Assembly: GCA_027486835.1 (NCBI GenBank)
Contig: JAIXOJ010000183.1
Span: forward strand, 1-38,561
Reading direction: 5' to 3'
Origin: Chitinophagaceae bacterium
Lineage (GTDB): Bacteria > Bacteroidota > Bacteroidia > Chitinophagales > Chitinophagaceae
DNA length: 38,561 nucleotides
A program made the translations under genes and the position numbers. The notes beneath the pieces were generated by a model. It had not been told where the DNA came from. It saw nothing but the letters and a program-made list of their open reading frames with translations, and made no database searches. The stretch's first letter is position 1. Each line of letters begins with the position of its first letter. Shown here piece after piece: positions 5,589 through 37,468 of this stretch.

Positions 5589-6332
5589 TTATATCACTTT
5601 CGCTTCTTCGTGTAGCAAGCGTACCAATTCTGCTACATTATCCGCAGCCACCATTTTAACACCCGTTTTGGTAGGACGCAATTCATAGTTTACTACCGAT
5701 GTTAGTGCCTCTACAGCCACAGGTGCAACAACTTTTAAAGGTTTAGTACGTGCCGCCATAATGCCGCGCATGTTGGGGATACGTTGTTCTGCCACACCCT
5801 TAGCGCAGCTTACTACAAGGGGTAATTGTACCGTAGCAACCTCTTCCCCTCCATCAATTTCTCTAGTAACAGTTGCAGTTTGTCCCTCCAATTCAAATTT
5901 GGTAGCTAAAGAAATAAAAGGCAGGTTGAGCAATTCGGCCAAAGTACCACCAATGGAAGAGCCATTATAGTCAATCGTTTCTTTGCCAGTGAAAATAAGA
6001 TCGTATTGATTTTGAGTGGCAATGGCTGCAATCTGCGATGCGATGTAATAACTGTCGCTATTGTCTGTATCTACTCTGTAACCTTCGTCACCGCCCAAGG
6101 CAAAGGCTTTCCTTAAAATTGGATCCACATCAGCACCACCCACAGAAATCAAATGAATGGTGGCAGTTGGATTTTTTTCTTTCAACTCAATGGCTCTAAT
6201 TAAAGCATACCATTCATCATAGGGATTGATAATCCATTGTACCCCAGCATCTTCAAATTGGGTATTCCCATTCTTAAAAGCTATTTTGGAGGTGGTGTCG
6301 GGGGTTTTGCTAATACAAACTAAAATTTTCAT
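5589..6332 (-). CDS. etfB: Electron transfer flavoprotein beta subunit
   Basis: EtfB binds AMP and, with EtfA, makes the soluble flavoprotein. The N-terminus MKILVCISKTPDT, the block ending NPYDEWYALIRAIELKE and the central FTGKETIDYNGSSIGG are the usual ETF-beta features; the C-terminal recognition-loop region reads PNMRGIMAARTKPLKV. The start at 6332 gives this standard N-terminus; the open frame extends 13 codons upstream without similarity. It is the first gene of an etfBA pair transcribed leftward, divergent from the TPR gene. Confidence 0.95.
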   Translation of the reverse strand: MKILVCISKTPDTTSKIAFKNGNTQFEDAGVQWIINPYDEWYALIRAIELKEKNPTATIHLISVGGADVDPILRKAFALGGDEGYRVDTDNSDSYYIASQIAAIATQNQYDLIFTGKETIDYNGSSIGGTLAELLNLPFISLATKFELEGQTATVTREIDGGEEVATVQLPLVVSCAKGVAEQRIPNMRGIMAARTKPLKVVAPVAVEALTSVVNYELRPTKTGVKMVAADNVAELVRLLHEEAKVI

Positions 6333-6571
6333 GTTCGATTTAGTGGTTTGATAAAAAAACGAGGGAATCAAAAAACTAGGGCGGCAAATATATACCTCTC
6401 ACTCATGGGAATGGTAGCATAAATGCAGTTCTTTTGCGTTTGTTGAAAGCGGGCGCGTATTGATAGAGGTACTATCCCTCCACAAATCCTTGTACAGTAA
6501 CCATTTGGTTAAATAACAAGCGCACCCCTTCAACTTATTTGCACCAGTTATTAAATTACTTAGAGTACCGC

Positions 6572-6883
6572 ATGGATAAGATTGAAAAATTAAAGGCTTA
6601 TTTACTTCTTTCCCCCAAGGATAATTTTTTGCGTCACGCACTAGGGTTAGAATACATTAAAATAGGAGATGAGCTAGCAGCAAAATCACTCTTTGAAGCC
6701 ATTCTGTTAGACAGCCCCGACTATGTAGGCACCTATTATCACTTGGCAAAATTGCTTGAACGTCTATCACTTACTGATGAAGCAATCCAATGGTATGAAA
6801 AGGGGATGGCCGCCGCAAAGCTGGCAAAGGATAATCATGCCTATAACGAATTGCAGGCTGCCTACGAAGAATTGGTGTACTAA
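6572..6883 (+). CDS. Small tetratricopeptide-repeat protein
   Basis: This protein of about 103 residues begins MDKIEKLKAYL. It contains two or three helical TPR units, for example NFLRHALGLEYIKIGDELAAKSLFEAIL and the next unit YVGTYYHLAKLLERLSLTDEAIQWYEKGM, with the usual A/G, Y and A positions. It has no signal peptide and should be a cytoplasmic adaptor. The open frame could start at 6539, but those 11 codons overlap the likely promoter region of the divergent etfBA/TPR spacer. Its partner is unknown. Confidence 0.8.
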   Translation: MDKIEKLKAYLLLSPKDNFLRHALGLEYIKIGDELAAKSLFEAILLDSPDYVGTYYHLAKLLERLSLTDEAIQWYEKGMAAAKLAKDNHAYNELQAAYEELVY

Positions 6884-14081: not shown

Positions 14082-14357
14082 ATAAATCAAAACAGAAGAT
14101 ACAATTAAATGCTTCAAAGTTGCCAATAAATAAGATATTAGTATCATGAATTGACCAAAAGTCACTATGAAATGCCTCAAAGTGATCAATAAATAAACAA
14201 TTGGTATCATGAATTGACTCAAAGTGACTAATAAATAAACAATTGGTATCATGAATTGACTCAAAGTTGCCAATAAATAAACAATTGGTGTTATGAATTG
14301 ACTCAAAGAACCTAATAACTAAACTCAAAGGCTCGATAAATTTTCTCATTGAGACAA
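14082..14357. repeat. Minisatellite with a 42 bp unit, about six copies
   Basis: The anchor AATAAATAA starts at 14125, 14188, 14230 and 14272, with weaker matches near 14082, 14314 and 14357. Spacing is 42 bp except for one 63 bp step (14125 to 14188), which is one and a half units and suggests a 21 bp sub-unit: ATGAATTGACCAAAAGTCACT followed by a decayed copy of itself. The core pieces are CAATTGGTATCATGAATTGA and CTCAAAGTGACT. Three central copies are nearly identical and the edges are decayed. Confidence 0.9.
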
Positions 14358-20707: not shown

Positions 20708-22264
20708 ATGCCACTTGCCAAAATTATTTGGGTTGATGATGAAATGGAAAGTCTTCAGTCGCAAAAAATGTTTTTAGAAAATAAAGGATACGCAGTAACC
20801 ACGTTTTCTAATGGATTTGACGCATTGGAATATTTGAAAGACAATATTGTAGATGTTGTTTTGATTGACGAGACCATGCCAGGCATCACAGGCTTGCAAA
20901 CCCTAGTTAAAATAAAAGAAATTAATAGAGCAATTCCTGTTGTGCTCATCACAAAAAATGAAACAGAAAACTTAATGGACGATGCTATCGGAAGTCAAAT
21001 TGCCGATTACCTCATTAAGCCAGTAAATCCCAATCAGGTACTCTTGAGCCTGAAAAAAATCATAGACAATAAAAGACTGGTTTCAGAAAAAACCACCACT
21101 ACCTACCAGCAGCAGTTTAGAAACCTCTTTACTGCACTCAATAGTAATCCTGATTACCAAGACTGGATGGAAATTTATAAAAAACTAGTGTTTTGGGAGC
21201 TGGAAATGGAAAAAACAGACAGCCCTGAAATGCAGGAAATATTGGCTTCCCAAAAAGAAGAAGCCAATACGGAGTTTTTTAAATTCATCAGCCGCAATTA
21301 TGCCAAATGGGTACACCCCAAATCTGCGGATTTGCCAGTGATGAGCCACACTCTCTTACAAAAGAAAATTATTCCACAGCTTGAAAAGGGGACACCCTTG
21401 TTTTTCTTATTAATAGATAATTTACGGTTAGATCAATGGAGAACTATCCAACCAATTTTTGCAGATAGCTTTAGGATTATTGAAGAAGATACATTCTTTT
21501 CCATCTTACCCACAGCTACTCAATACAGTAGAAATGCCATTTTTAGTGGCTTGCTACCCATAGATATTGAAAAGAAATTTCCCATTCAATGGAAAAATGA
21601 TGATGAGGAAGGGGGAAAAAATTTGTACGAGTACGATTTTTTCAAAGAGTTTTTGAAAAAGCAACGGTTAGAGCATCTGAAAGTAAGTTATACTAAAGTT
21701 GCCAACCATCAGGATGGACTCAACTTGGTGAATAATGTACACAACATGTTGTCGAACGACTTGAATATAATCGTGTACAATTTTGTGGACATGCTTAGCC
21801 ACGCAAGAACAGAAATGGAAGTATTGAAAGAACTTGCTGGAGATGAAGCCAGCTATCGTAGTGTAACAAAAAGCTGGTTTGAACACAGTGCACTTCACCA
21901 AGCGCTCAAAAAAATTGCAGATAAAAAAGTGAAATTATTGGTTGCTACCGATCATGGCACTGTGCGGGTAAAAAAGCCCAGCAAGGTTATTGGTGATAAA
22001 CAAACTACTACCAACCTTCGGTATAAACATGGTAAAAACCTTAATTACGAACCCAAAGAAGTGTTAGCTTTTAGAGATCCTCGCGAAGCGGCATTGCCAG
22101 TACCCAACATTAACTCCTCCTTTATTTTTGCCAAAGAAGATGGCTTCTTTTGCTACCCTAATAATTACAATCACTTTGTAAATTATTACAAGAATACCTT
22201 TCAACATGGTGGGGTAAGTTTGGAGGAAATGATTATTCCTGTTATTACTATGGTAAGTAAGTAA
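20708..22264 (+). CDS. porX: T9SS response regulator PorX (receiver plus PglZ)
   Basis: PorX controls type IX secretion genes, usually with the histidine kinase PorY, which is not in this window. The N-terminal receiver domain (1-120) has the acidic pair in WVDDE (10-11), phospho-acceptor Asp54 in LIDETMPG and Lys104 in LIKPVN. A helical linker leads to a PglZ domain of the alkaline-phosphatase superfamily (about 200-515). Visible metal-site elements are LIDNLRLDQW and ATDHGTVRV with His. The 518-residue length matches known PorX proteins. There is no DNA-binding domain. It stands as its own unit, with the small gene at 22420 following. Confidence 0.94.
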   Translation: MPLAKIIWVDDEMESLQSQKMFLENKGYAVTTFSNGFDALEYLKDNIVDVVLIDETMPGITGLQTLVKIKEINRAIPVVLITKNETENLMDDAIGSQIADYLIKPVNPNQVLLSLKKIIDNKRLVSEKTTTTYQQQFRNLFTALNSNPDYQDWMEIYKKLVFWELEMEKTDSPEMQEILASQKEEANTEFFKFISRNYAKWVHPKSADLPVMSHTLLQKKIIPQLEKGTPLFFLLIDNLRLDQWRTIQPIFADSFRIIEEDTFFSILPTATQYSRNAIFSGLLPIDIEKKFPIQWKNDDEEGGKNLYEYDFFKEFLKKQRLEHLKVSYTKVANHQDGLNLVNNVHNMLSNDLNIIVYNFVDMLSHARTEMEVLKELAGDEASYRSVTKSWFEHSALHQALKKIADKKVKLLVATDHGTVRVKKPSKVIGDKQTTTNLRYKHGKNLNYEPKEVLAFRDPREAALPVPNINSSFIFAKEDGFFCYPNNYNHFVNYYKNTFQHGGVSLEEMIIPVITMVSK

Positions 22265-22419
22265 TAGGTACTAAGTTGTAGAACTAATGGTCAAGGTATT
22301 TTAACTAAAGTGTTTTGAACTAAGTATATAGATGATTATTTTTTGAATCAATGTAATTTAAGCCACCTATAAGCTCATACCAGCCACTTTGTAACTAACC
22401 CCTTTTTTTAATTGACTTT

Positions 22420-22853: not shown

Positions 22854-24152
22854 CTACTGAATTATTTTTTCCATCTGCATGCTTCTGGAGCCCTTTACCA
22901 GCAAAAGGGTATTACTAAAATTTTGAGCTACATACCATTCTTTGGCTTCGATGGAGTTATTGAAGTAAAGAAACGGGTGGGATACATTACCAAAATCGCC
23001 CCCTACTAGTACCACTTGTTTCCACTGGTGTTTTGCTATTAAAAGTATGATGGCTTCGTGCTCTAGTAAGCTATCTTCCCCTAACTCCATCATACCGCCA
23101 AGTAATAATATTTTGTTTTTTGTCGAATCAAGCTGTGCAAAGTTTTCTATAGCAGCTTTCATGCTGGTGGGGTTAGCATTATAAGCGTCTAAAATAATTT
23201 GGTTGCTGCCTATTTGCAATAACTGCGATCGACTGTTGGAGGGTGAATACTGCTCAATGGCGTGTTTAATCAATGGATCAGGCACCTTAAAATGTCTTCC
23301 GATAGCTACCGCACTTAATACATTGGGTAAGTTATAATCGCCCACAAGCTGGGTGCGTATGGAAGCAAGAATGGGTTTATGCGCAATGCTAATTTCCAGA
23401 AATGGACTGTTGGAAATAATTTCGCCCCTCAAGTCTCCCTCTGTTGTACCATATTTTATCAGGTTATTAATACCCTTACTCATGGTTTGTAGATAGTCGT
23501 AATCCCAATTAACGAAAGCAGTACCTCCATTTTCCCTTATAAAATCATACAACTCCCCTTTGCCTTTTTTCACCCCTTCTACACCGCCAAAACCTTCCAA
23601 ATGGGCTTTACCACAATTGGTAATGAGCCCATAGTTTGGCAATGTATAGCTACAATAGCCCGCTATTTCTTTTTGATGGTTGGCTCCCATTTCCACAACA
23701 GCTATTTGAGCATCGGCCTTTATTTTCAAAAGGGTAAGCGGCACGCCGATGTGGTTGTTCAAATTTCCTTCTGTGGTATAGGTAGTGTAAATGGTGGCCA
23801 ATACCGCACTTACCAATTCTTTTGTGGTGGTTTTACCGTTGCTACCAGTAATGGCTATAATAGGGATGTTCAGTTGTTGCCGATGGTGTTTGGCCAAGGC
23901 TTGCAGCCAAGCGAGTGTGTCTGGCACCACCACCACTTTATCGCTTAATGTAGCCAAAGCAGGGTCATCCACTACTGCATAAGATGCACCAAGTTCTAAA
24001 GCCTTCATAGCATATGCATTACCATTGAAATTTGGCCCCTTCAATGCCCAATAGATGGCTCCAGGTTGTAGTTTTCTAGTATCTGTTTGAATCGTAAAGA
24101 CAGATAAATATAGTTGATACAATCGCTGCAATAGGGCTTCGTTCTGTTCCAT
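22854..24152 (-). CDS. murF: UDP-MurNAc-tripeptide--D-Ala-D-Ala ligase
   Basis: MurF adds D-Ala-D-Ala to the UDP-MurNAc-tripeptide, the last cytoplasmic step in building the peptidoglycan precursor. At 432 residues it is normal for the family. The N-terminal Mur domain has FTIQTDTRKLQPGAIYWALKG. The ATP-binding domain has ITGSNGKTTTKELV with the P-loop and EMGANHQKEI, and the C-terminal domain has LDAYNANPTSM. It is not beside other mur genes. The leader consists of five heptads that abut the ATG (24153-24187). Confidence 0.96.
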   Translation of the reverse strand: MEQNEALLQRLYQLYLSVFTIQTDTRKLQPGAIYWALKGPNFNGNAYAMKALELGASYAVVDDPALATLSDKVVVVPDTLAWLQALAKHHRQQLNIPIIAITGSNGKTTTKELVSAVLATIYTTYTTEGNLNNHIGVPLTLLKIKADAQIAVVEMGANHQKEIAGYCSYTLPNYGLITNCGKAHLEGFGGVEGVKKGKGELYDFIRENGGTAFVNWDYDYLQTMSKGINNLIKYGTTEGDLRGEIISNSPFLEISIAHKPILASIRTQLVGDYNLPNVLSAVAIGRHFKVPDPLIKHAIEQYSPSNSRSQLLQIGSNQIILDAYNANPTSMKAAIENFAQLDSTKNKILLLGGMMELGEDSLLEHEAIILLIAKHQWKQVVLVGGDFGNVSHPFLYFNNSIEAKEWYVAQNFSNTLLLVKGSRSMQMEKIIQ

Positions 24153-24187
24153 TTAGGTTCTAGGTTGTAAGTTTTAGGTTCTAGGTT
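24153..24187 (-). repeat. Five heptads abutting the murF start codon
   Basis: On the coding strand the 35 nt before the ATG read AACCTAG, AACCTAA, AACTTAC, AACCTAG, AACCTAA in exact 7 nt phase, with no gap to the start. Further out, ACTTACAG looks like one more decayed unit. It has the same type, strand and position as the runs before leuD and the PorE-like gene. Confidence 0.85.
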
Positions 24188-26141: not shown

Positions 26142-26732
26142 TTATTTGTTCTCAGCAAAAGCCAAAATTTCAGTTTTCATGGCTTGCAAATAATCAATAT
26201 CGTCAAAGCCATTCAAGAGATTGTGTTTCTTGTAGCCATTGATGTCAAATGATTCAGAAGCACCTGTAGCCACAATACTAATGGTTTGTTGTTCCAAATC
26301 TACCTCCAGTTCTGTGGCTGGGTCTGCTTCAATGGCAACAAATATTTGGTCAAGAAATGCCTCACTCACTGTTACAGGAAGTATCCCGATATTAATGGAA
26401 TTGTTTTTAAAAATGTCTGCGAAAAAGCTGGAAACTACACAACGAAATCCGTAGTCATAAATGGCCCAAGCTGCATGTTCGCGACTGCTACCGCTGCCAA
26501 AATTTCTTCCACCTACCAAAATTTTTCCTGTGTAGATGGGGTTGTTCAAGACAAAATCTGTTTTTATGGTTCCGTCCGAATTGTAGCGCCAGTCTCTAAA
26601 CAAGTTGTCGCCAAAACCTTCGCGCTTGGTAGCTTTCAGAAAGCGGGCTGGAATAATTTGGTCAGTATCAACATTTTCTATCGGTAAGGGTACAGCCGAA
26701 CTTTTTAAAATCGTGAATTTATCGTAAGCCAT
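26142..26732 (-). CDS. leuD: 3-isopropylmalate dehydratase small subunit
   Basis: LeuD is the swivel-domain subunit that with LeuC isomerises 2-isopropylmalate to 3-isopropylmalate, and also citramalate in the CimA route. The 196-residue length is standard. Family marks are [14 protein letters not shown] near the N-terminus and [18 protein letters not shown] near 93-110. It lies 282 nt after leuC and about 250 nt before cimA, in the same direction. Its leader contains six heptads. Confidence 0.96.
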
Positions 26733-26743
26733 GATAAAGTATT

Positions 26744-26785
26744 TGTAGGTATTAAGTAATAAGTATTAGGTAATAAGTTATAGGT
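26744..26785 (-). repeat. Six heptads in the leuD leader
   Basis: On the coding strand ACCTATA, ACTTATT, ACCTAAT, ACTTATT, ACTTAAT and ACCTACA follow in exact 7 nt phase, ending 11 nt before the ATG. Every unit fits ACYTANN. Confidence 0.85.
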
Positions 26786-28611: not shown

Positions 28612-29284
28612 CGTAGAATGGCATCTGTAAAACTGCAAATGCCCATCCTGAGACGTAGAACCGCACCTGCAAAACTGCAGAAGCCATTCTACGTACGTAG
28701 AACCCTATCTGCAAAACTGCTGATGCCATTCTACGTGCGTAGAATCACCACTTGCAAAACTGCGGAAGCGATTCTACGTGCGTAGAACCATACTTGCAAA
28801 ACTGCGGAAGCCATTCTACGCACGTAGAACCACACTTGCAAAACTGCGGAAGCCATTCTACGCACGTAGAACCGCATCTGCAAAACTGCGGAAGCCATTC
28901 TACGTGCGTAGAATCATACCTGCAAAACTGCAGATGCTATTCTACGTGCGTAGAACCACACTTGCAAAACTGCGGAAGCCATTCTACGTGCGTAGAACCA
29001 TAGTTGCAAAACTGCGGAAGCTATTCTACGTGCGTAGAACCGCATCTGCAAAACTGCGGAAGCGATTCTACGTGCGTAGAATCATACCTGCAAAACTGCA
29101 GATGCCATTCTACGTGCGTAGAACCACACTTGCAAAACTGCGGATGCCATTTTACGTGCGTAGAACCACACTTGCAAAACTGCAGATGCCATTCTACGTG
29201 CGTAGAACCGCACTTGCAAAACTGCGGAAGCGATTCTACGTGCGTAGAATCATACCTGCAAAACTGCGGAAGCGATTCTACGTA
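28612..29284. repeat. Minisatellite with a 42 bp palindrome-containing unit, 16 copies
   Basis: Units start with CGTAGAA at 28612, 28654, 28696, 28738, 28781, 28823 and then every 42 bp to 29243; only the fourth unit is 43 bp. Each carries TTGCAAAACTGCGGAAG or a close variant and ends TTCTACGTG. Neighbouring units therefore meet in TTCTACGTGCGTAGAA, a palindrome with 7 bp arms. Some units also contain CTGCAAAACTGCAG, a second inverted repeat, and others pair CCGCA with TGCGG. Variation is both silent and non-silent in every frame, and the 43 bp unit shifts the frame, so the long open frames here are not genes. The first and last units are decayed. Confidence 0.97.
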
Positions 29285-29471: not shown

Positions 29472-30329
29472 CTACTTCGCTTTTTTAGTTGCAGTTGTAT
29501 CCTTGTCTTTTGGGTAATTGATCAGTGGATAGTGATCTATAGTTTCAAAAACATTTTTGGGGTCAGCCTTTAATAAGGTAATAAAACGAGTTAAAGAATC
29601 CTGATACTGAGGCTTTGCAAACATTCGGTCATGCGCCAAGATTACTATTGCATTCGGGGCAACCGTAAGGGCATCTTCAAATTTTTCGTTGACAATTTTT
29701 ACCATTTCTTGTGCACCTTGGATAGGCGTATTACCACCCTTAAAGCCCCATTCTACGTCCCAGCCAATAACGTTATACCCCAATTCGCCCAATTTCTTAT
29801 ACACACCCTCGGTAGATTTAGGCCCCTTCATTTCTCCATCTAACACCCAAGAATTATTCCCTGGTAGGCGGATAATTTTTACGGGTATTTTCAATTCCGC
29901 CTCAGCCCGTTGAAAATCCTTCACAGCGCTATCTGGTTGGGTATAAAATTTCTTGTACTGGTTGTTAAATCCGTGAGAATAACTGTGGTTGGCCAATAAA
30001 AATTCGGGGTAACTCTCCCTAATTTCTTCTGCAAGTTTGCGCCTACGCATATCAAATGCATGCATTCCCACAGCAAAAAAAGTAGCTTTTACACCCTCTT
30101 TTCTAAAAATATCTCTGCAAACAACTGTTCCAGGAGGCTGGGGCGAATCGTCCCATGTAAGGTAGATGTAGCGTTTGCTACTATCAAATTTAATAGGAGT
30201 CCCAGGTTTTGGCTTTGGCGGTGCTTCCACTGCTTTTTCTTCTTTTTCTTTATTGGTTTCGTTGTTATTGCCACAGCTTAGCATGGCCAACAATACCATT
30301 AGCAAAGAAGCAACTTTCATCATTTTCAT
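29472..30329 (-). CDS. Polysaccharide deacetylase (NodB-type) lipoprotein
   Basis: The ATG at 30329 gives MKMMKVASLL and a lipoprotein signal ending MLSC (Cys19). A Lys/Glu/Pro linker follows, then the NodB fold (about 52-280). Catalytic motifs are TWDDSP with Asp60/Asp61 and the metal-binding NHSYSH (His115, His119). RLPGNNSW and the IGWDVEWGF segment match the later family motifs, and ILAHDRMF resembles the final His motif. It probably removes acetyl groups from a cell-wall or envelope polysaccharide from its lipid anchor. The frame opens three codons earlier at a TTG. It is monocistronic, with its own terminator. Confidence 0.93.
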   Translation of the reverse strand: MKMMKVASLLMVLLAMLSCGNNNETNKEKEEKAVEAPPKPKPGTPIKFDSSKRYIYLTWDDSPQPPGTVVCRDIFRKEGVKATFFAVGMHAFDMRRRKLAEEIRESYPEFLLANHSYSHGFNNQYKKFYTQPDSAVKDFQRAEAELKIPVKIIRLPGNNSWVLDGEMKGPKSTEGVYKKLGELGYNVIGWDVEWGFKGGNTPIQGAQEMVKIVNEKFEDALTVAPNAIVILAHDRMFAKPQYQDSLTRFITLLKADPKNVFETIDHYPLINYPKDKDTTATKKAK

Positions 30330-35269: not shown

Positions 35270-35325
35270 ACTTAATACCTACCACCTAATACCTATTACT
35301 TTATACCTACGACCTATTACTTACT
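35270..35325 (+). repeat. Eight heptads abutting the PorE-like start codon
   Basis: ACTTAAT, ACCTACC, ACCTAAT, ACCTATT, ACTTTAT, ACCTACG, ACCTATT and ACTTACT follow in exact 7 nt phase, and one base later comes the ATG. All but one fit ACYTANN (ACTTTAT has an extra T for A). This is the longest run of the type in the window. Confidence 0.9.
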
Positions 35326-35326
35326 T

Positions 35327-37468
35327 ATGAATCTACAAATAAAATTGTCTAGCACGCCACTCATTACCCCATTTTTTGGTAAGGGTACTAATCTGTGGAA
35401 GCATCTGCATAAAAGAACAAAAACATACCTAGCATTACTTGCCATTAATTTAATTACCATTTTTGGTGGTCATGCTCAAGAGCAAAAGGGGTTAGTGGCA
35501 TCTGCGAATGAAGCGTACTCACGGTATGAATATGCTACAGCAGCCAAACTATACGAAAGAGCTGCCATAAAAAACAATAAAGACGGGTTGATCATTTCCC
35601 GATTAGCCTCCTGCTACAAGGAAATGAATAATTACGAGGCTGCCGAAAAATATTATAACCAATTGATTGCGTTGCCGGGTACTGCCCCTGAAGAATGGCT
35701 CTATTTTGCCGATATGCTCAAAAGCAGGGGGAAATATCCTGAAGCAAAAGAAATTTACCAGCAATACCAGCAAAGAAGTACCAACGATATTAAGAACAAG
35801 CTGTTAGGGTGCGATAGTGCCAGCTATTGGATGGCACATCCTGTGGAAGTAACTATCGACAATATGGCACCACTCAATACTGCCAAATCTGATTGGGGGG
35901 CTGTTTTTAACCCCATTACCAACAATTTAATTTTTGTTTCAGACAGTTTACGCAACACCAAAAAAGGGATTTTTAAAAAAGCATTTAGCGAAACGATTTA
36001 CGGTAGAACCGATAATTATTTCCAGAAGATTTATGCCATTGGTTCTGATAAAGGGGATGCTTTCAACAACCAGATTCACGACTTTGACCCTGTAATCAAT
36101 GCTTACGAATACCACACTGGGCCATTGGTTTTTAGTGCCAATTGCGATAGCATTTACTTCACCGTTACTTATGCAGGTAACAACCACCCCATTACCACAG
36201 ATAAAACCGCTAATCCTGCAGATTCAAAATACAAAACACGTCGCTTAGAACTCTATTTATCCACTCTCAACAGCAGTACGGGCACTTGGAACAAACCCAT
36301 TCCTTTCCCTTTTAACAGCCCTGCCCGCTACTCCGTAGGTCATGCCGCTATTAGCCGCGATGGGCGCTATCTGTATTTTACCAGCGATATGCCTGGTGGT
36401 TTGGGTGGTCTTGATATTTGGTTTTGCGAAAGATTAATTACCGGCAATTGGGGCATTCCCAAAAATTGTGGTAATAAGATAAACACCAAGGAAGATGAAG
36501 CCTTTCCAGTTATGGGTATCGATGGCAATCTATATTTTGCTAGCAAAGGCCATGTGGGCATGGGTGGATACGATCTGTTTGTGGCTTCTGGCGAAAAAAA
36601 CAAATGGAGTCATCCCCTTAGTTTGGGTTATCCATTTAATTCCAGCGGCGACGACTTCTATTATTTTGCCAAAGACGAAACCACGGGCTTTTTTGCTTCT
36701 AATCGAAAAGGAGGGTTGGGCGATGACGATATTTATCAATTTGTACTCAACCAGCCATTGGCCATGCCTAGTGCCAACAATGCTGTTATGCTTGAGGTGA
36801 AAGTTATAGACAATGCCACCAAAGCCCCTATTAATACCGCCGATTTACAAATACAAAATACTGCCACCGATGTAAAGTGGGATCAACAAACTAATTTCAA
36901 TGGGCAAGCTTGGCATTCCGTTGATGCTGAATCGCCTTATGCGATTACCGTTAGTAAGTCGGGTTATTATGGAACAATGGTGGCCATCAATACCAAAAAT
37001 GCAAAAGGAGATACCTTGAAAGTGGTTATTCCGCTTGCCAACTTGGGTGGCCCCAAGCCAGCTCCTAAGGTGTATCGCTTGGCAGATACCATCAGCAGCC
37101 TAGGTGTGGGTGATCGGTTTCGGCTCAACAATATCCACTACGATTTTGACAAAGACAATATTAGACCCGATGCGGCAAGGATTTTAGATACATTGGTGGA
37201 CATTTTGAACCAATATCCCACAATGATTATCGAATTATCGTCCCACACAGATTCTCGCGGTAGCGACCAGTACAATGTAAACCTTGCAGACAGGCGTGCA
37301 AAATCTGCTGTTGCTTATTTAATAGCCCATGGCATTGAGCGTAGAAGAATGTTTGCCAAAGGGTATGGTGAGTTTTTATTGCTCAACGGCTGTAGCAACG
37401 GTGTACCATGTAGCGAAGCTGAACACCAAGAAAACCGCAGAACCGAAGTGAAAATCTTAAAGCTTTAG
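35327..37468 (+). CDS. PorE-like TPR/beta-propeller/OmpA protein
   Basis: The 713-residue protein has an unusually long N-terminal stretch before a signal segment (about 33-50, ending GHAQ). TPRs follow (about 57-150), then a PD40/WD40-like propeller (about 185-460; DGRYLYFTSDMPGGLGGLDIW, GNLYFASKGHVGMGGYDLF). A carboxypeptidase-regulatory-like domain (about 485-575) and an OmpA peptidoglycan-binding domain (about 600-712) complete it, the last with HYDFDKDNIRPDA, SSHTDSRGSD and NLADRRAKSA. This is the order found in T9SS PorE, which links the machinery to the cell wall. Bacteroidota carry several paralogues of this build, so orthology is unproven, and there is no lipobox Cys as in some PorE. 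It lies alone, with eight heptads ahead of the ATG. Confidence 0.85.
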   Translation: MNLQIKLSSTPLITPFFGKGTNLWKHLHKRTKTYLALLAINLITIFGGHAQEQKGLVASANEAYSRYEYATAAKLYERAAIKNNKDGLIISRLASCYKEMNNYEAAEKYYNQLIALPGTAPEEWLYFADMLKSRGKYPEAKEIYQQYQQRSTNDIKNKLLGCDSASYWMAHPVEVTIDNMAPLNTAKSDWGAVFNPITNNLIFVSDSLRNTKKGIFKKAFSETIYGRTDNYFQKIYAIGSDKGDAFNNQIHDFDPVINAYEYHTGPLVFSANCDSIYFTVTYAGNNHPITTDKTANPADSKYKTRRLELYLSTLNSSTGTWNKPIPFPFNSPARYSVGHAAISRDGRYLYFTSDMPGGLGGLDIWFCERLITGNWGIPKNCGNKINTKEDEAFPVMGIDGNLYFASKGHVGMGGYDLFVASGEKNKWSHPLSLGYPFNSSGDDFYYFAKDETTGFFASNRKGGLGDDDIYQFVLNQPLAMPSANNAVMLEVKVIDNATKAPINTADLQIQNTATDVKWDQQTNFNGQAWHSVDAESPYAITVSKSGYYGTMVAINTKNAKGDTLKVVIPLANLGGPKPAPKVYRLADTISSLGVGDRFRLNNIHYDFDKDNIRPDAARILDTLVDILNQYPTMIIELSSHTDSRGSDQYNVNLADRRAKSAVAYLIAHGIERRRMFAKGYGEFLLLNGCSNGVPCSEAEHQENRRTEVKILKL

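Follow-up and report, generated by a model that had tools for sequence, protein, structure and literature searches.

The tandem runs of the heptanucleotide ACYTANN found in the window, by which we mean the whole 38,561-nt stretch of DNA analyzed here, are real and strand-polar, and they are not a leader motif as such. In the genome to which the window belongs (G000), 62 of 63 runs have the 3′ end of their ACYTA strand closer to a gene than the 5′ end, and because 35 of the 63 face a start and 28 a stop, the orientation of a run is set by the gene edge and not by the direction of transcription. The rule is that the ACYTA strand points inward, at a start or a stop edge alike.

The most economical account, and the one that we tentatively favor, is that a strand-polar heptanucleotide repeat of intergenic DNA fills dispensable spacer up to functional boundaries and that the runs are its local form. 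In the mechanism that we infer, each run would grow and turn over in dispensable spacer DNA, the synthesis of repeats would be directional with steps of 7 and 14 nt, and extension would stop at sequence protected by selection, namely a start codon, a stop codon, or a core promoter. Growth of this kind would leave a run ending against a functional boundary whatever the direction of the gene; no sequence-specific job in the leader would be needed, and any effects on expression would be side effects. It would yield polarity only if runs overwrite and do not merely insert. A role as a transcription boundary is the main functional rival.

Runs in the window and their genes

The three runs listed in the earlier note are all present, on the strands given there and in 7-nt phase. 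The first (35270-35323, + strand) has eight slots, of which seven are exact ACYTA and only the fifth deviates (ACTTT), and it ends 3 nt before the ATG at 35327 of a gene (35327-37468, +) with Pfam OmpA, TPR, and PD40 domains; we assume this gene to be porE-like, as named in the earlier note. The second (26746-26785, −) consists of six exact units and is 13 nt away from the start of leuD (26142-26732, −; Pfam Aconitase_C), which it precedes, and the third (24154-24186, −) of five exact units 1 nt before the start of a murF-like gene (22854-24152, −; Pfam Mur ligase domains). The names leuD and murF agree with these domains. The distances first given, 1, 11, and 0 nt, are measured from the end of the last heptad with its two spacer bases, whereas the exact units end 3, 13, and 1 nt from the starts. 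The list was correct for its three runs but omitted a fourth of three exact units (22258-22276, −). This run has the stop-edge form: it lies antisense to the gene at 20708-22264 (+; Pfam Response_reg and PglZ), overlapping the end of that gene and its stop codon, and the next start is 143 nt away. Within the window, the three-unit pattern matched 11 times, with no match in 100 shuffles.

Longer tandem repeats also occur in the window. A 42-bp unit with inverted ends (CGTAGAA...TTCTACG) is present in 15 tandem copies at 28654-29283, between leuC and the gene at 29472, and there are minisatellites of five 67-bp copies at 331-663 and of 42/63 bp at 14107-14324.

Occurrence in the genome and in relatives

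Across the 6.4-Mb genome, the four-unit pattern had 136 matches (56 forward and 80 reverse), and the reversed control had none. The earlier view that the runs are nonrandom, fixed in strand, near genes, and not one copied segment was supported.

The G000 sample comprised 43 stretches at listed four-unit places and 17 other contig heads, 935 kb including the window. It was compared with an inferred Terrimonas ferruginea genome (G015) and with further relatives. The stretches of G000 and of G002, G003, and G009 (G002/3/9) were mostly picked around runs of at least four units, whereas those of G015 and all but one of G008 were not. Genes were called by our own dicodon script, so that starts are approximate. 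By these calls, 66 of 67 G000 runs are intergenic, and the remaining one lies at the last bases of a gene. Polarity counts include only runs with a called gene on both sides. The runs thereby left out number 4 of 67 in G000, where one lies inside the end of a gene, 3 of 54 in G015, 11 of 41 in G002/3/9, 1 of 8 in G008, and 3 of the 9 leu-region runs.

Exact runs of 3, 4, 5, and 6 or more units numbered 34, 23, 18, and 14 in the whole of G000 (derived counts), without a peak at four; a four-unit preference hinted at by the array-centered stretches was dropped for G000 on these numbers. In 600 kb of G015, runs of 3, 4, 5, 6, 7, and 15 units numbered 15, 23, 12, 3, 1, and 1, with a peak at four. 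The two-unit runs of G000 are mostly chance, since the same derivation gave 125 of them against 101 for the reversed two-unit pattern. The four-unit pattern was present in 18 of the 39 relatives' genomes surveyed and in 34 of 97 genomes of the Chitinophagaceae (own genome included in both), where its distribution is patchy even inside genera.

Polarity at gene edges

The median distance of G000 runs from the edge that they face was 20 nt for starts and 5 nt for stops; 26 of the 35 runs at starts and 27 of the 28 at stops lay within 50 nt. Inward polarity recurred in G015 (44 of 51 runs), in the array-centered stretches of G002/3/9 (24 of 30), and in G008 (6 of 7), and was less clear in other congeners, where 4 of 6 leu-region runs pointed inward. 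The recurrence in several sets and the likeness of start and stop edges favor growth in dispensable spacer. Against it stand the exceptions: seven of 51 in G015; six of 30 in G002/3/9, all with at least 494 nt on the gene side, possibly from missed genes; and two of six in the leu-region set, for which the distances to the two genes are 35 and 36 nt.

The G000 rates per edge, which are inflated by the choice of stretches, were 30/371 for tandem starts, 22/371 for tandem stops, 7/132 for converging stops, and 5/152 for diverging starts. In G015, where stretches were not selected for runs, the corresponding rates were 16/190, 21/190, 8/74, and 6/116. The earlier note had given the runs a fixed place in 5′ leaders; by its own test of strand and position, this place was not supported, with 28 of 63 runs antisense at stops against 35 at starts.

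Could the geometry at stops be an artifact? The complementary strand of the unit, TARGT, supplies stop codons, so that genes would end where a run begins, and 7 of the 28 stop-edge runs do touch or overlap the stop codon (distances −7 to 0). However, ACYTAA and ACYTAG also give stops, in the opposite orientation, yet of the 37 runs that turn their 5′ end toward a stop just one is within 50 nt of it, and start edges are equally polar. Moreover, GGGNATC repeats, which bring no stop codon, have the same geometry (PMC4692102). We consider the artifact highly improbable and, given the reverse-sense count and the polar start edges, insufficient.

Composition and order of the units

The two spacer bases of the unit avoid G, at frequencies of 0.01-0.09 for the first and 0.02-0.14 for the second in three sets. 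Likewise, the inward strand of lag-7 repeats in G000 is nearly free of G (0.03 at both kinds of edge). The remaining spacer sequence at G000 stop edges has no such skew in its first 20 nt (C 0.19, G 0.16), which rules out background skew as the source of polarity there. Both the G-poor inward strand and the unskewed remainder favor a polar transcription boundary, in which a G-poor, C-containing RNA tract would stop untranslated transcription, antisense or leader, for instance via Rho, and polarity would be selected at both edges. Such a role would suit starts and stops equally. However, most edges carry no run (any lag-7 repeat was found at 98 of 593 G015 edges), close relatives differ in the presence of a run at the same edge, and, to our knowledge, known Rho sites have no 7-nt phase, which argues against the Rho version. 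A transcription boundary is possible, although we would place it on the improbable side.

Growth in dispensable spacer also meets a difficulty here. Pooled lag-7 repeats at stop edges had C/G frequencies of 0.15/0.15 in G012, 0.12/0.15 in G002/3/9, and 0.17/0.13 in G008, a C-over-G bias that is slight or absent, partly because short spacers include the opposite arm.

The order of units is consistent with growth of the runs, in that spacers of equal sequence are found chiefly 14 nt apart (0.42 in G000 and 0.31 in G015, against 0.12 and 0.17 between runs). In G015, neighboring spacers are less alike than spacers between runs (0.09 versus 0.17), which simple 7-nt slippage does not predict. Beyond the exact units of G000 runs, imperfect units continue in phase toward the gene: slots +1 to +4 on the gene side match 3.2, 3.2, 2.9, and 3.1 of 5 positions. 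On the spacer side, the match decays within about four slots (3.0, 2.6, 2.3, and 1.85 of 5 at −1 to −4; 1.6-2.0 out of phase). The continuation on the gene side favors spacer-filling growth, but it is clear in G000 only; in G015 and G002/3/9 the excess is limited to the first one or two slots.

On the outward strand, GGG is present in 4 of the 67 G000 runs and in none of the 54 of G015 or the 41 of G002/3/9, and at least four GG tracts on that strand occur in 30 runs of G000, none of G015, and one of G002/3/9. A quadruplex account is possible for part of G000, mainly in the two-tier form, and is closed for G015 because both counts there are zero.

Promoters and the leader question

We took TAnnTTTG to be the consensus of the Bacteroidota −7 box. 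Its density in G000 was 2.6 per kb within 50 nt of starts against 0.0-0.8 beyond 75 nt, and in G015 it was 5.0 and 3.3 per kb near starts against 0.3-1.2. In four sets, the position of the box was scored for the 66 start-edge runs that are no farther than 150 nt from a start; 41 of these lie at 16-150 nt and 25 at 15 nt or less. Among the 41, a box lay between run and start in 10 and within 100 nt upstream in 1; extending the upstream scan to 150 nt added a second upstream box, giving a box downstream of the run in 10 of 12. The 25 runs closest to a start had no box within 100 nt upstream. Four permuted boxes, used as a control, gave 0-3 occurrences between run and start and 0-5 upstream. Where a promoter is visible, the run would therefore usually precede it, and because the predicted −7 box follows the run in 10 of 11 cases, such transcripts would begin after the run. 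This runs counter to the leader reading and favors growth of the run up to a functional boundary. Runs that abut start codons may still be transcribed. Boxes were found at 8 of 52 run-bearing genes against 172 of 686 (p = 0.13), so that promoter loss at run-bearing genes was not significant.

These results bear on a functional RNA element in 5′ leaders, such as a ribosome standby or a protein-binding tract whose copy number tunes expression. The 35 of 63 runs that face a start in the sense strand at a median of 20 nt and the 25 of 66 start-edge runs within 15 nt of the start are consistent with it, as are the 7-nt period kept at the leuD start edge in most congeners and the published precedent of TAACTGA repeats (PMC4679880). 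However, the antisense runs at stops, the similar rates per edge, the boxes downstream of runs, and the differing units at orthologous edges count against it. A leader element is unlikely, and the first three of these points led us to reject a leader-only role as a general account.

Inverted pairs and folding

Neighboring runs within 200 nt of each other in all sets were arranged −+ in 24 cases, +− in none, ++ in 5, and −− in 4; that is, all 24 inverted pairs face outward, with their G strands converging. The uniform order is consistent with spacer-filling growth and equally with runs being the arms of intergenic palindromes, as in REP- or terminator-like hairpins, which have no direction and would thereby give the symmetry of starts and stops. 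Some spacers do hold such structures: the leuD-leuA spacer contains perfect heptad palindromes with arms of 24 bp in G007 (z −10.4) and 28 bp in G001 (z −8.7), and L252, between converging genes, has a fold z of −10.7. However, the arms of the 24 pairs fit no better than mismatched arms (mean duplex −28.0 versus −28.8), in a rough test with overlapping slices in 9 of 24 rows and with orthologous copies as the two leu rows, and spacer identity within pairs was 0.58 versus 0.53. Arms that are mutually complementary, as in REP-like elements, were by this rough test confined to a few perfect cases. Moreover, just two pairs within 200 nt occur among the 67 G000 runs, the runs of the window show no folding (z 0.33, −0.31, and 0.02), and G015 frequently has another heptad family at the opposite edge; ATTSACN heptads also occur in G015 spacers, often at the opposite edge from ACYTA. 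We judge the palindrome reading to be rather unlikely, and a hairpin function was mostly rejected on arm fit, window folds, and the scarcity of pairs.

Runs also recur at fixed distances of 150, 121, and 84 nt (L284 13825-14150, L267 15299-15445, and L258 2842-3035), apparently as longer tandem duplications in which the heptad run is copied too.

The leu region in congeners

The order leuC-leuD-leuA is preserved in congeners. In the 56 nt before leuD, ACYTA was found in none of six congeners (G007, G004, G001, G011, G012, and G005), which are related and thus not independent cases. Lag 7 was nevertheless the strongest of lags 4-11 in five of them, all except G005, with shuffle P values of 0.0000 in G007 and G012, 0.0005 in G004, 0.006 in G011, 0.019 in G001, and 0.18 in G005. 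The units directly before the leuD start are AATTATC-like in G007 (L207 6497-6552) and TTCAAAT-like in G012 (L211 9806-9861). In the leuD-leuA spacer, ACYTA heptads occur in G007, G004, and G011, an ACGTA/ACTTA palindrome in G001, and ACTCA heptads in G008; the palindromes in G004 and G011 have arms of 20 and 12 bp, respectively. The leuD-leuA spacers of G012, G005, G009, and G000 had no heptad runs by eye. G001 has ACGTA although its blocks are 87-95% identical to two G011 stretches over long matches (70% in one shorter block). At the leu spacers, the place is retained and the sequence of the unit changes, which favors spacer-filling growth and argues against a sequence-specific site. The leu region alone was usable for a substitution test on orthologous runs; the extra stretches L287 and L288 shared no long match.

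A sequence-specific array of DNA-binding sites that marks gene boundaries would account for the constant ACYTA and for two variable spacer bases that avoid G, and to that extent selection on a binding site could produce the pattern that we ascribe to growth. However, at the same spacer relatives carry ACYTA, ACGTA, ACTCA, AATTATC-like, or TTCAAAT-like units, and the presence of the pattern in 34 of 97 family genomes, patchy within genera, also counts against this reading, which we regard as very unlikely.

The leuC-leuD spacer holds a small ORF in G004 (L208 9425-10035), G001 (L209 10830-11508), and G011 (L214 ~6066-6725), in which an Asp-Thr-Gly motif as in retropepsin-like proteases was recognized by eye. 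This ORF was not seen in the shorter leuC-leuD spacers of G000, G007, G012, and G005.

Other repeats with the same polarity

We scored tandem repeats that have a period of 3-12 and a difference in C and G between their strands, with length thresholds that vary by period. Period 7 accounted for 89 of 112 such repeats in five Chitinophagaceae sets, and 75 of the 89 point inward, including 44 of 55 that are not ACYTA. In loci from other phyla, which were chosen for containing six-unit ACYTANN and for which gene calls are rough, 65 of 99 ACYTA repeats and 62 of 81 other heptads point inward. Six-unit ACYTANN runs in these loci were inward in 67 of 93 cases (15 of 19 with varied and 52 of 74 with uniform spacers). 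Because heptads other than ACYTA are inward in 44 of 55 and 62 of 81 cases, the polarity is not bound to one sequence, which again favors growth in spacer DNA. Repeats of period 8 were inward in 12 of 16 cases in the Chitinophagaceae sets and 17 of 20 in the other phyla, too few to tell from period 7.

Period-8 repeats are the second commonest class in G015 (L227-L236 and L267-L286), where 12 of the 15 scored point inward.

A bolder extension is that edge polarity holds as a law for heptanucleotide repeats in bacterial spacers generally, whatever their sequence and whether or not they form quadruplexes, and is written by an unrecognized directional DNA synthesis, telomere-like or template-switching, that would add 7-nt units with the 3′ end of the G-bearing strand away from the gene. 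We regard this as decidedly unlikely.

Relation to known heptanucleotide repeats

We found no report of ACYTANN runs in the open-license PMC literature. The short tandemly repeated repetitive (STRR) sequences of cyanobacteria are likewise tandem heptanucleotides in spacers, with more uniform units.

The closest geometry is that of the heptameric repeats GGGNATC and GGGGA(C/T)T in Xanthomonas and Nostoc. As described by Rehm et al. 2015 (PMC4692102), these are mostly intergenic, and their G strand points outward from the ORF at both edges whatever the direction of the ORF. Those upstream of an ORF are on its antisense strand and those near its stop on the sense strand, in either case within 50 bp. 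They form inverted pairs, share no common gene function, vary in length among close relatives, form G-quadruplexes, and favor four units, and their function was left open. The ACYTANN runs resemble them in the 7-nt unit, the intergenic location, the outward G strand at both edges, and the inverted pairs, but differ in their variable spacers and in rarely or never having G-tracts of three or more. Thus, the geometry of ACYTANN had already been published for quadruplex-forming heptads, and in Terrimonas it is present without G-tracts. The polarity of GGGNATC was left unexplained there and was framed around quadruplexes; the T. ferruginea repeats remove that explanation, at least for their own case. 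What looked peculiar to Xanthomonas and Nostoc thereby becomes a wider question that can be tested, namely the origin of 7-nt repeats and the reason for which they stop at gene boundaries irrespective of the direction of transcription.

A second likeness is to the TAACTGA direct repeats of Beggiatoaceae, Cyanobacteria, and some Bacteroidetes. In MacGregor 2015 (PMC4679880), 147 of 170 sets in BOGUAY lie toward a start codon and 12 toward a stop, and in Flexibacter litoralis 12 of 14 sets are sense and just before starts, with one set just after a stop and reversed. The statement of the earlier note that it knew of no described leader role in this group is qualified by that account, which places sense heptamers before starts in a Bacteroidete. 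Like TAACTGA, ACYTANN forms runs of heptamers that end a few nucleotides before the starts of unrelated genes; TAACTGA, as presented there, is a fixed sequence found mostly at start edges, whereas ACYTANN is another unit that divides into 35 start and 28 stop edges. The excess of heptanucleotides among LSSR (Mrazek 2007, as cited in MacGregor 2015), in which 7 nt is the favored unit length, is similar to the dominance of period 7 in the present sets, and the LSSR account as excerpted in that citation is without edge polarity. Polar repeats of this kind are a warning against annotating such runs as regulatory leaders.

A dispersed element beside some runs

A mobile element with a heptad tail was rejected as the source of the runs, as searches in G015 and G002/3/9 returned the heptads themselves. 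In G000, expectation maximization (EM) returned a dispersed motif near TGACACAATAAATTCAGCATTTAAAA that accompanies a minority of the runs, mostly at 21-31 nt on their 5′ side, and the matrix of this motif had 93 matches against 23 for the reversed matrix. Elements near TGACACAATAAATTCAGCATTTAAAA lie at L152 19127 and 19276, L176 8992 and 9144, L168 1438, and L173 9585, and some adjoin runs; those in L152 and L176 adjoin sequence with GTAGAGACG.
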